A stretch of DNA of 64,000 bases from contig RXIV01000004.1 of assembly GCA_003989085.1 (NCBI GenBank), positions 1-64,000 on the forward strand. Reading direction: 5' to 3'. The notes beneath the pieces are model-generated. The model searched no databases. It was not told where the DNA came from and saw nothing but the letters and a program-made list of their open reading frames with translations. Shown in pieces: positions 16,595-20,000 of the stretch (the first letter of the stretch is position 1; each line of letters opens with the position of its first letter). Made by a program: the position numbers and the translations under genes. This stretch comes from Candidatus Competibacteraceae bacterium. GTDB taxonomy: Bacteria; Pseudomonadota; Gammaproteobacteria; Competibacterales; Competibacteraceae.

Positions 16595-17281
16595 TCAGGA
16601 ACACTTGGAGTCGCCGCAATTCAGGCAGGTCAGGCAACCATCCATGCTAATGACAGCTTTCGTCTGGCACTTGCTGCACAGCGTGGCTTCCGGCGGAAAG
16701 GTATTGGCGGCGGTGTCCTCGACCGCCTTCATGCCGAGTTCATATTTCTTGCGCTGCGCTTCGATCAACTGGCGCTGATGCTCATCGAGTCCGTCTTCCT
16801 TGAACAGGCCGATGGAGCGCATGTGCGATTCAATCACGTCGCCGATCTCGGCCACCAGCGATGGCATGTATTTACCGCCTTTTTTGAAGTAGCCGCCCTT
16901 GGGATCGAAGACCGAGCGCATTTCCTCGACCAGAAAGGTCACGTCGCCGCCCTTGCGGAAGACCGCTGAGATAATCCGGGTTAAGGCGACAATCCATTGA
17001 AAATGCTCCATTGCCTTGGAATTAATGAAAATCTCGAAAGGGCGGCGGATTTCGTGTTCAGTGCCGGGATTGAGGACCACATCGTTAATGGTGATATAGA
17101 GCGCGTGATCCGATAGCGGAGTTTTCACTTTATAAGTCGCACCGGGCAATACATCAGGTCGTTCCAGGCTTTCATGCATTTGCTGCACGGCCGGGGTCGG
17201 ACCACTCGCGGGCGCGGGTGGGGTGTCGTCGGACTTGACGACGCTATAGGCGACGATTTTTTTGTCGATTTTGATGACCAT
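16595..17281 (-). CDS. nrdJb: Class II ribonucleotide reductase, NrdJb subunit
   Basis: A 228-residue protein matching the separate C-terminal part (TSCPD domain) of split vitamin B12-dependent ribonucleotide reductases. PFEIFINSKAMEHFQWIVAL and GGDVTFLVEEMRSVFDPKGG are typical, and the end holds a five-Cys cluster (CSKC, CLTC, C, C) likely to be redox or zinc sites. The start at 17281 (MVIKIDKKIVAYSVV) follows GGAGGGG nine bases upstream. In Pseudomonas nrdJa and nrdJb are nearly contiguous; here 559 bases separate them and a terminator-like hairpin precedes this gene. Confidence 0.9.
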   Translation of the reverse strand: MVIKIDKKIVAYSVVKSDDTPPAPASGPTPAVQQMHESLERPDVLPGATYKVKTPLSDHALYITINDVVLNPGTEHEIRRPFEIFINSKAMEHFQWIVALTRIISAVFRKGGDVTFLVEEMRSVFDPKGGYFKKGGKYMPSLVAEIGDVIESHMRSIGLFKEDGLDEHQRQLIEAQRKKYELGMKAVEDTAANTFPPEATLCSKCQTKAVISMDGCLTCLNCGDSKCS

Positions 17282-17302
17282 AACTTTCGTCCCCTCCGGT
17301 GG

Positions 17303-17334
17303 AAGAAAACAGCCCCTATATTGCAAGGGGCTGT
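17303..17334 (-). terminator. Terminator-like hairpin immediately upstream of nrdJb
   Basis: On the minus strand ACAGCCCCT and AGGGGCTGT form a 9-bp stem around an 8-base loop, followed by TTTCTT. It ends about 22 bases before the nrdJb start, overlapping the space just ahead of the Shine-Dalgarno. It could end the transcript of the upstream element or work as an attenuator for nrdJb. Confidence 0.65.
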
Positions 17335-17341
17335 GAGACAT

Positions 17342-17600
17342 CGGGGCGCGAGTTGAGCGGCACCCGCGCGCGGGTTGAAAGGACGGCTGGCCGGCCTGGA
17401 AACCCCAAGCGGGCGCAAGCCGCGAACGTAGTGAGCGGTGTCCGCTCCAACGAGGGTTCGACGGCAGCGAAGCGCCGAGAACCCGACGTTGGACTCAACT
17501 CGCGCCCCGTTCGTCGGCGCGAAGCGCCGACGAACACAAGATTAGACGGAGTCTAGCGAGAGGGAGGGCTGCGCCAGTGCGCTCTTACACACTCCCACTT
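17342..17600. other. GC-rich structured element between nrdJa and nrdJb, possible non-coding RNA
   Basis: Bases 17342-17357 and 17494-17509 are perfect 16-bp inverted repeats enclosing about 136 bases. Inside are a palindrome 17362-17375, small stems at 17409-17423 and 17434-17446, and a tiered hairpin 17446-17493 (7-bp TCCAACG/CGTTGGA enclosing GGGTTC/GAACCC) abutting the outer helix. A perfect 12-bp hairpin with loop GAA follows at 17509-17535, and GGGAG/CTCCC pair near 17562-17596. No plausible protein is encoded. The layout looks like a structured RNA or a small mobile element; an IscB-associated (HEARO/omega) RNA is one untested possibility. Confidence 0.5.
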
Positions 17601-17798
17601 GCCAAGCCTAAATCTTGAATACTCGTTTACAAATATGGTCTTATGACCACTCATGAGGTTGTACCTCGTCAGTTGAGGCGCAACCGAGCCTTAAAACCTT
17701 GGTTGAAGGGCTTGATAACAGGTGCTATTGTTACCCTCAGTATTTGTCAGATACACCAAGGGGGAGACGCTCGGTTACCGAATTTGTCTCCTCACACG
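17601..17798. other. Remaining nrdJa-nrdJb spacer with further stem-loops
   Basis: This part is less GC-rich but still structured: TGGTC/GACCA with loop TTAT at 17636-17649, and a nested hairpin at 17763-17791 (GGAGAC/GTCTCC enclosing TCGGT/ACCGA). A 64-codon plus-strand open frame at 17643-17837 lacks a ribosome binding site and recognisable similarity, so it is not called. Confidence 0.35.
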
Positions 17799-17826
17799 CG
17801 GGGACCGAGCGCCAACTCGGTCCCCG
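17799..17826. terminator. Strong 11-bp hairpin just downstream of nrdJa
   Basis: CGGGGACCGAG and CTCGGTCCCCG pair perfectly around a 6-base loop, 14 bases beyond the nrdJa stop. There is no T run on the minus strand, while the plus strand continues TTCGCTTTT. It may stabilise the 3' end of the nrdJa transcript or border the inserted element. Confidence 0.45.
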
Positions 17827-17840
17827 TTCGCTTTTGAAGC

Positions 17841-20000
17841 CTAGAATTTCCCGTAGTACCCCTCCTTGATCGCATCAAACAAATTCGCCGCCGTGTGAAC
17901 CTCACCGTCGTACTCGATCTCCTCGTTGCCCTTGACCTCGATTTCCGAACCATCCTCCAGCACAAACCGGTAGCCGGTGTTGGCCAGATCCTGCTCCTTG
18001 ACCAGTACGCCCTGAAACGCCGCCGGGTTGAAACGGAAGGTAGTACAACCTTTCAAACCCTGCTCATAGGCGTAGAAATAAATGTTTTTGAAGTCTTCGT
18101 AGGGAAAATCAGGCGGGACATTGGCCGTTTTCGAAATGCTGGAGTCGATCCATTTTTGGGCCGCCGCTTGAATATCGACGTGCTGGCAGGGCGTTACATC
18201 GTCGGCTGTAATGAATACTTCTGGCAGGCGTTCTTCAGCCGATTCGGCATTGGGTATAGCCTGTGGATTGATCAGGTGCCGATAGGCCAGTAACTCAAAG
18301 GAAAACACATCGACCTTTTCCTTGGATTTCTTGCCGGGGCGGATGATGTTGCGGCAGTAGTGATGAGCGAAACTAGGCTCAATGCCATTGCTGGCGTTGT
18401 TGGCAATGGACAAGGCGATGGTGCCGGTTGGGGCGATAGAAGTGTGATGGGTGAAGCGAGCGCCCACTTCCGCGAGTTTTGCCACCAAATCTGCATCAAG
18501 TTCGGCGATCCGTTGCATATAGCGGCTATAGCGGGCGTGTAAAACCTTACCCTTGACCCGATCGCCTTCCTGGATCCCATCGCGAGCCAGTTCCGGGCGC
18601 TGGCGCAGCATTGCGGCAGTGATGGTGAAGTCCTGTTCCAGAACGGGAGCGGGGCCTTTCTCTTGCGCCAGTTCCAAAGCAGTGCGCCAACCGGTCAACG
18701 CCATCTCGCGGGTGATTTTTTCGGTGAATCCTAGCGATTCCGGCGATCCATACTTCATGCCGAGCAGGGCCAGCGTGGAACCCAGCCCCAGATAGCCCAT
18801 GCCATGCCGGCGTTTGCTAAGGATTTCCCTGCGCTGTCGTTCTAGCGGCAGGCCATTGATTTCTACTACGTTATCCAACATCCGGGTAAAAATGGCGACC
18901 ACCTTCCGATAGGTTTCCCAATCGAAGCTGGCTTGGGCGGTAAATGGGTTCTGGACAAACGGGGTGAGATTGATCGATCCGAGCAGACACGAACCATAGG
19001 GCGGAAGCATCTGTTCACCACACGGATTGCTGGCCCGGATGGTTTCGCAGAACCAGTTATTATTCATCGCATTGACTTCATCAATCAGGATAAAGCCCGG
19101 CTCCGCGTAATCGTAGGTGGAGGTCATGATGGCGTCCCATAACCGGCGGGCGCGGATTTTCCTGTAAATTTTGCAGGCAACCTGCCCAATCCCGTTGAGA
19201 GTCAGGCCGGTAGTGATCGGCCATTCACGCCAGACAATCCGTTCTGGATCGCTCAGATCGATCTGATCTTGCTCAACTTCCTTGGCCAATAATGGAAACG
19301 CCAGCAGCCAGTCAGTGTCCTGCCGGACTGCTTCCATGAATTCGCGGGTGATCAGCAAGGACAGGTTGAACTGCCGCAGCCTGCCTGCCTCGCGCTTGGC
19401 GCGGATAAACTCCATGACATCCGGGTGGCCGATGTCGAAGGTTCCCATTTGGGCACCTCGCCGCCCGCCGGCTGATGACACGGTGAAACACATCTTGTCG
19501 TAAATATCCATGAACGACAGCGGCCCGGAGGTATAGGCGCCTGCACCGGAAACGTAAGCGCCGCGTGGGCGGAGGGTGGAAAATTCGTAGCCGATGCCAC
19601 AACCGGCTTTGAGTGTTAATCCGGCTTCATGCACTTTGCCAAGGATAGCGTCCATCGAATCCTGAATCGCGCCTGACACCGTACAATTAATGGTCGAAGT
19701 GGCTGGCTTATGGTCCCAAGCGCCAGCGTTGGAAACAATGCGCCCTGCCGGAATTGCACCATGTCGCAGTGCCCACAGAAATTTTTCGTACCAGCATTCC
19801 CGCAATTCCGGCGTGGCTTCTACTTCGGCCACCGCCCGCGCCACTCGCTGACAGGTTCCGTCAATCGTCTCATCAATCGGACGCCCATCTTTAGCTTTGA
19901 GCCGGTATTTCTGATCCCAGATATCCCAGGAGGCCGGTTGCATTGGCACGTCGGCGGCAGTGATCGGACGGTCGGCGGGTTGCAGGTGCGCGGTCTTCAT
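17841..20000 (-). CDS. nrdJa: Class II (adenosylcobalamin-dependent) ribonucleotide reductase, NrdJa
   Basis: A 719-residue catalytic subunit that makes deoxyribonucleotides using adenosylcobalamin and needs no oxygen or iron centre. Visible motifs: the N-terminal redox Cys in TSTINCTVSG, the active-site block ASNPCGEQMLPPYGSC (Asn-x-Cys-x-Glu), the phosphate-binding SIAPTGTIALS, and GRRGAQMGTFDIGHPDVMEF. It ends before the TSCPD domain, which is encoded by nrdJb. A GGAG precedes the start. The 349-base region upstream shows no cobalamin riboswitch that I can recognise. Confidence 0.93.
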   Translation of the reverse strand: MKTAHLQPADRPITAADVPMQPASWDIWDQKYRLKAKDGRPIDETIDGTCQRVARAVAEVEATPELRECWYEKFLWALRHGAIPAGRIVSNAGAWDHKPATSTINCTVSGAIQDSMDAILGKVHEAGLTLKAGCGIGYEFSTLRPRGAYVSGAGAYTSGPLSFMDIYDKMCFTVSSAGGRRGAQMGTFDIGHPDVMEFIRAKREAGRLRQFNLSLLITREFMEAVRQDTDWLLAFPLLAKEVEQDQIDLSDPERIVWREWPITTGLTLNGIGQVACKIYRKIRARRLWDAIMTSTYDYAEPGFILIDEVNAMNNNWFCETIRASNPCGEQMLPPYGSCLLGSINLTPFVQNPFTAQASFDWETYRKVVAIFTRMLDNVVEINGLPLERQRREILSKRRHGMGYLGLGSTLALLGMKYGSPESLGFTEKITREMALTGWRTALELAQEKGPAPVLEQDFTITAAMLRQRPELARDGIQEGDRVKGKVLHARYSRYMQRIAELDADLVAKLAEVGARFTHHTSIAPTGTIALSIANNASNGIEPSFAHHYCRNIIRPGKKSKEKVDVFSFELLAYRHLINPQAIPNAESAEERLPEVFITADDVTPCQHVDIQAAAQKWIDSSISKTANVPPDFPYEDFKNIYFYAYEQGLKGCTTFRFNPAAFQGVLVKEQDLANTGYRFVLEDGSEIEVKGNEEIEYDGEVHTAANLFDAIKEGYYGKF

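Follow-up and report, generated by a model that had tools for sequence, protein, structure and literature searches.

A probable ORF-less integron mini-cassette between nrdJa and nrdJb in a Candidatus Competibacteraceae bacterium

Integron integrases recognise little beyond a 5'-GNT triplet, which is cut after the G (PMC10127599). A consensus of GWTMW/GNT has been given for secondary sites (PMC4618277), where G^A cleavage of GAT has also been described (PMC10127599). The architecture of the attC site weighs heavily on recombination in VCR sites, where deletion of the extrahelical bases together with pairing of the spacer reduced integration into attI by IntI1 8.5e4-fold (PMC2727003). The sequence described here shares its crossover triplets with these systems and departs from them in the structure of its stem.

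The window, by which is meant the whole 64,000-nucleotide stretch of contig RXIV01000004.1 that was analysed, encodes a class II ribonucleotide reductase in two parts (Table 1). The first-pass annotation had taken the genes flanking a structured element for nrdJa and nrdJb, and this identification holds, the former matching NrdJ_Z and the latter bearing a TSCPD domain. The 559-base gap reported between them stands for an nrdJb start at the ATG near 17281, which is the likely one, and falls to 499 bases when the longest open reading frame (start 17341) is used. The proposal that an element is inserted here was borne out by an empty site in three relatives, namely two congeners (G001 and G002) and a more distant family member (G004), and by many copies elsewhere. 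In both congeners the empty site, ...GAGACATCACAAGATTAG..., equals the two window flanks joined exactly, so that the insertion comprises 193 bp (17342-17534), with no target duplication and a single ambiguous C in the empty-site comparison. The extent originally proposed (17342-17600) thus retains 17342-17534 as the discrete unit, while 17536-17600 is nearly identical in relatives without the element and represents flank. A classical MITE, with terminal repeats and target duplication, is ruled out as no duplication is seen at the empty site.

Table 1. Features of the nrdJ locus and of the inserted element (window positions; sequences of stem arms in brackets).
Feature	Position	Strand	Basis
nrdJb, C-terminal part of class II ribonucleotide reductase, TSCPD domain	16595..17341	-	Match to B12-dependent ribonucleotide reductase, C-terminal part
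Noncoding segment upstream of nrdJb, one half	17290..17341	-	95-100% identity in two congeners over 17297-17609
Target triplet GAT (G^AT), probable secondary-site crossover	17340..17342	-	Junction comparison; PMC10127599 on GAT cleavage
Probable complete mini-cassette, 193 bp	17342..17534	-	Empty site in G001, G002 and G004; copies aligned end to end
Outer stem B, one arm (CGGGGCGCGAGTTGAG)	17342..17357	+	Fold; left edge is the probable cassette 3' (R'-side) crossover
Variable inner domain	17358..17446		Swapped for an unrelated structured stretch in 221-bp subfamily B
Inner hairpin	17447..17493		Compensatory changes among copies (helices 1 and 2)
Outer stem B, other arm (CTCAACTCGCGCCCCG)	17494..17509	+	Fold
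Hairpin A, 12-bp perfect stem with 3-nt loop (GTTCGTCGGCGC-GAA-GCGCCGACGAAC)	17509..17535		Helix 3 covariation
Noncoding segment upstream of nrdJb, other half	17535..17610	-	Conservation in congeners
nrdJa, NrdJ_Z class II ribonucleotide reductase	17841..20000	-	NrdJ_Z match

The element splits a conserved noncoding stretch which, once the element is subtracted, is more strongly conserved in the two congeners than the adjacent coding part of nrdJb (mostly 0.80-0.93 identity per 40-column window), and a minus-strand TGTGA-N4-TCACA palindrome is interrupted as well. The split segment holds a hairpin that covaries in G004. No Rfam match to it was found when the empty-site relatives were examined, and it may act as a leader RNA or operator for nrdJb; an effect of the insertion on nrdJb expression is speculation. 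A role of the element itself as regulator of nrdJb, as had been suggested, is at odds with the relatives that lack it, even though it splits this segment, and the element probably has no dedicated function in nrdJ. Outside the element, two hairpins followed by a T-rich tail (17751-17834, plus strand) resemble BjrC68 at 26 bits, below the gathering score. This double hairpin also occurs in G001 on the 3' side of nrdJa. Since it is encoded opposite to nrdJ, it could represent either a terminator or a small RNA of that strand.

Both the 16-bp perfect inverted repeat and the 12-bp perfect hairpin (17509-17520/17524-17535) of the first-pass annotation are present exactly as it gave them, with base 17509 common to the two. 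Its description of a richly folded domain is likewise accurate, the stability lying far above that of shuffled sequences both for 17300-17860 folded as RNA (z = -8.8) and for the element alone folded as DNA (z = -7.9). No protein could be assigned, in agreement with the same annotation, the open reading frames inside the element being short and overlapping only. The cassette orientation of the nrdJ copy is the minus strand (TTCGTCGG...CGCCCCG), and the plus strand, the counterpart of the attC bottom strand, folds more stably (-77.3 vs -72.4 kcal/mol). In cassette orientation, the members of the family (174-223 bp) begin with hairpin A (11-12 bp, 3-nt loop), which carries an R''-like AAC, followed by stem B (12-16 bp), which encloses the inner hairpin and a variable head of two types, found in subfamily A (174-194 bp) and subfamily B (~220 bp), respectively. 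The variable domain occupies a position comparable to that of the variable terminal structure of attC sites. On inspection, the unit closed into a circle reads GACGAAC...GTTCGTC across the junction, and the two core boxes are therefore complementary, as in excised cassettes. Covariation among the copies, which had been proposed as a check, is well above that of shuffles, with 39 cells in which both partners differ compared with an expected 10.9; 97% of the cells are paired, and the signal is gone when the partners are slid. Hairpin A contributes changes on both sides in 4 of 11 pairs. Its 3-nt loop is found in both orientations (TAC/GTA, TCC/GGA; for example in L157 and L038 compared with the window), as if the tip flips by strand switching.

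A search for further copies, also suggested at the outset, recovered ~18 dispersed copies or large copy parts in the 3.5 Mb, 30-contig genome to which the window belongs, clustered in one orientation at spacings of 0.7-5 kb. The element is found at E <= 1e-8 in 17 of 39 Competibacteraceae genomes. An exact 25-base probe matched 17 stretches among 84,980 species genomes, and all the named records among these belong to Competibacteraceae or to unspecified Gamma-/Proteobacteria MAGs. When 369 genomes sampled from the class were searched with a covariance model built on the conserved 90-nt part, only four gave a match: besides the own genome, these were one congener and two members of other families that matched more weakly. 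Each of the latter two genomes (L178 in G348, L179 in G067) holds one diverged copy of this part. Plasmid, phage, E. coli and viral-contig collections yielded no match, and the element is thus not a common plasmid or phage element. In another species (G021), a clcA-like chloride channel gene is broken at a GAT triplet by a 221-bp family member (L048, G021:C67, 1503-1723), and the ClC reading frame is open throughout once the flanks are joined at G^AT. The earlier suggestion of a decayed mobile element came nearest, although the nrdJ copy is full-length, perfectly paired and apparently part of an integron system.

The ends of the copies are the crossover triplets of integron integrases. Left ends in cassette (minus-strand) orientation read G^TTC(A/G)TC or G^TTGACG in every copy, while the right ends of all 33 full-length copies are G^TT (29) or G^AT (4). 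As in integron gene cassettes, units are bounded by G^TT crossovers without target duplication and are inserted at attI beside intI: 11 of the 46 distinct left (5') junctions, in several species, lie exactly at attI. Seven of these attI sequences end in CTACTTC(A/T)TG and four in CTAAT(T/G)CTAG, and an ordinary first cassette is joined at the same attI base in G017 for the first type and in G010 for the second. At least 13 further left junctions follow a foldable attC-like site, a lower bound given the low sensitivity of the simple, automatic attC finder, with a false-positive rate of 1.6-1.7% in controls for either of the attC-neighbour criteria. The remaining junctions include a few at chromosomal GWT secondary sites, among them those at nrdJ and clcA. 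A position at attI could, however, also arise if the unit were carried along passively in a larger cassette as its 5' leader, so that evidence for movement of the unit itself comes from the solitary copies only.

An intact integron integrase gene (C4:80347-81288; TIGR02249, 487 bits) is located 0.3 kb from a copy and adjoins the element cluster near C4:70-80 kb. A second intI of the same genome (G000:C6:117863-118544, L032) is broken into two pieces, with an in-frame TAG, and has its own attI type, which is occupied by an element copy. An IS200/IS605-type Y1 gene (G000:C4:66440-66805) occurs ~4 kb from the cassette array, with element ends absent nearby. The integrase that a gene cassette would need is encoded in the host and its relatives, intI being found in 18 of the 39 family genomes. 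Element and intI co-occur in 13 genomes, the element alone is found in four, intI alone in five and neither in 17 (Fisher p = 0.0013, a value that ignores relatedness and is inflated by common descent). In the four genomes with the element alone no intI scored above the cut-off; G024 retains an intI fragment near a copy.

Parts of the element also recur within gene cassettes. At C1:304.6 kb, hairpin A alone is combined with an ordinary short attC into a gene-less unit of ~77 bp, the left junction of which is the same as that of the element. Hairpin A is also placed directly 5' of a methyltransferase-like gene (identified by reading) and its attC at C6:109.9 kb. A higBA toxin-antitoxin cassette at C1:652 kb (L036 9951-10735; HigB 53 bits, HigA 100 bits) places the higA stop codon within an R'' box (GCCTAAC); the degenerate attC that comes next is derived from the element, and its spacers appear unpaired by inspection. 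In G049 the array runs attI, truncated element, ankyrin gene, attC, element, acetyltransferase gene, attC, element, both genes being identified by reading. Degenerate copies such as that of higBA thus appear to serve as the attC of neighbouring genes, suggesting that the element may also seed gene cassettes and linking it to cassette genesis.

Read from sequence comparison, the multicopy state, the exact ends, the empty sites, the junction rules, the attI, attC and GWT positions, the adjacency to attI and attC, the presence of intI beside many copies and the covariation suggest that the element is probably an ORF-less integron mini-cassette spread by integron integrase, of which the nrdJ copy was captured at a secondary site between nrdJa and nrdJb. 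IntI would be the catalyst, cutting G^TT at both ends of the element to release a putative single-stranded or circular unit, in which hairpin A stands back to back with stem B and its variable head. The free unit would then rejoin at another G^WT. This would lie in attI or in the last box of an ordinary attC, and in rare cases the target would be a secondary ('attG') site with GWT in the chromosome. On this view, the nrdJ copy would have entered a secondary site by crossover at the minus-strand G^AT, and the element would behave as an integron satellite.

The weak point of the mini-cassette reading is structural. Canonical attC sites have two or three extrahelical bases, an unpaired central spacer between the R and L boxes, and boxes of the form RYYYAAC (R'') and GTTRRRY (R'). 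Stem B, by comparison, is a perfect 16-bp helix with zero extrahelical bases, the central spacer is fully paired, R'' (GACGAAC or CGTCAAC) shares the AAC core only, and R' consists of GTT or GAT followed by variable bases. The element is not classed as a canonical attC because its perfect stem has neither extrahelical bases nor an unpaired spacer, and this is also why the mini-cassette reading is rated as probable and no higher. The discrepancy would be resolved either by tolerant integrases, by movement that is rare and still recorded by evolution, or by another enzyme combined with carriage as a cassette leader. A bolder version, which is possible although somewhat doubtful, has the integrases of this lineage recombining the perfect stem itself, so that the element would be a self-spreading, gene-less 'mobile attC' that lands behind genes at GWT, degenerates to a normal attC, as in higBA, and thereby creates cassettes.

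The chief rival is an IS200-like mini-transposon, that is, a MITE-like non-autonomous element moved by a single-strand (HuH, IS200/IS605-like) or other transposase, inserting after 5'-AWC (plus strand) and subsequently carried by arrays as a cassette 5' leader. The hairpins at both ends and the missing target duplication fit the logic of IS200/IS605, a perfectly paired stem is more in keeping with a transposon than with an attC (PMC2727003), and the own genome has three matches to Y1 transposase. However, no related sequence was seen with a transposase between the same ends, nor was an autonomous IS200/IS605-type relative of this kind found in the own genome. The stretch with the Y1 gene on C4 (L031 1-6500) is devoid of element matches, as are contigs C23 and C5, and the target spectrum of attI, attC crossover and GWT is that of integron integrases. 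The target of IS200/IS605 elements is a fixed tetranucleotide, for which variation at W would be unusual, and the transposon explanation is considered unlikely overall. It is still less likely that the family is an inactive remnant of a large attC, the arms of which became a perfect palindrome by template switching and which now spreads only via array recombination and duplication. Such an origin would account for the perfect arms, the loop inversions of hairpin A and the hybrid copies, but the solitary exact insertions of the perfect form, at the site that is empty in congeners and inside clcA, imply that this form is mobile.

Conservation for the sake of a structured RNA, acting as small RNA or cis-regulator in nrdJ or elsewhere, is very improbable. 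The fold is strong, the helices covary and promoters can reside in ORF-less cassettes (PMC11014356), but folding as DNA alone would yield covariation too, relatives do without the element at nrdJ, and the copies have unrelated neighbours, whether in a chromosomal or in an array context. The interval 17200-17900 yielded no promoter-like site, and the Rfam search of the window at gathering score returned nothing in the element and only tRNA elsewhere, while the permissive search added the BjrC68-like hairpin outside the element and chance-level matches only. The orphan HEARO (IscB omega) RNA put forward by the first-pass annotation found no counterpart in Rfam, whether at the gathering score or with the threshold relaxed to E = 10, the group II intron it named for checking matched no Rfam intron model at gathering or permissive scores, and its standalone structured RNA gives way to a multicopy insertion. 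A riboswitch or known small RNA is likewise not supported by Rfam.

The element bears on cassette genesis, i.e. on how genes first gain an attC, since new cassettes could arise from recombination sites that are themselves mobile. Its natural copies place a gene-less unit at attI, behind attC and at solitary GWT sites, while a degenerate form appears to act as the attC of real cassettes. If a cognate integrase moves it, the rules of attC recognition would need to be widened, and steps of cassette formation would become testable with natural substrates. It also provides integron-associated insertions outside the array, one of which interrupts a gene, in environmental, glycogen-accumulating Competibacteraceae.

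Among known systems, ORF-less cassettes such as those of Vibrio superintegrons (PMC11014356) resemble the element in being discrete, G^TT-bounded units without an ORF within an array. The element differs from these in its much smaller body, consisting of hairpin A only, in not having a canonical attC, and in being highly repeated in one genome, also outside the array. With VCR-type attC sites (Vibrio cholerae repeats) it shares an inverted-repeat stem, a large branched head, repetition in arrays and AAC/GTT bounds, while differing in its perfect stem, free of extrahelical bases and unpaired spacer, in its size of ~165-195 bp and in that its insertions are not confined to positions after genes but also adjoin other attC sites. 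Cassettes at integron secondary (attG) sites are likewise solitary insertions at a GWT triplet with a G^W crossover; the element, by comparison, represents natural gene-less insertions at several loci in different species, and not the product of an assay. Group IIC-attC introns (PMC7923331) are similarly mobile, structured, attC-associated and, if the element is read on the plus strand, opposite in orientation to the cassettes. The element differs from these introns in that its 193 bp contain no intron-encoded protein and match no group II intron model of Rfam, and in its junction, which is G^WT where that of the introns is TTGT/T.
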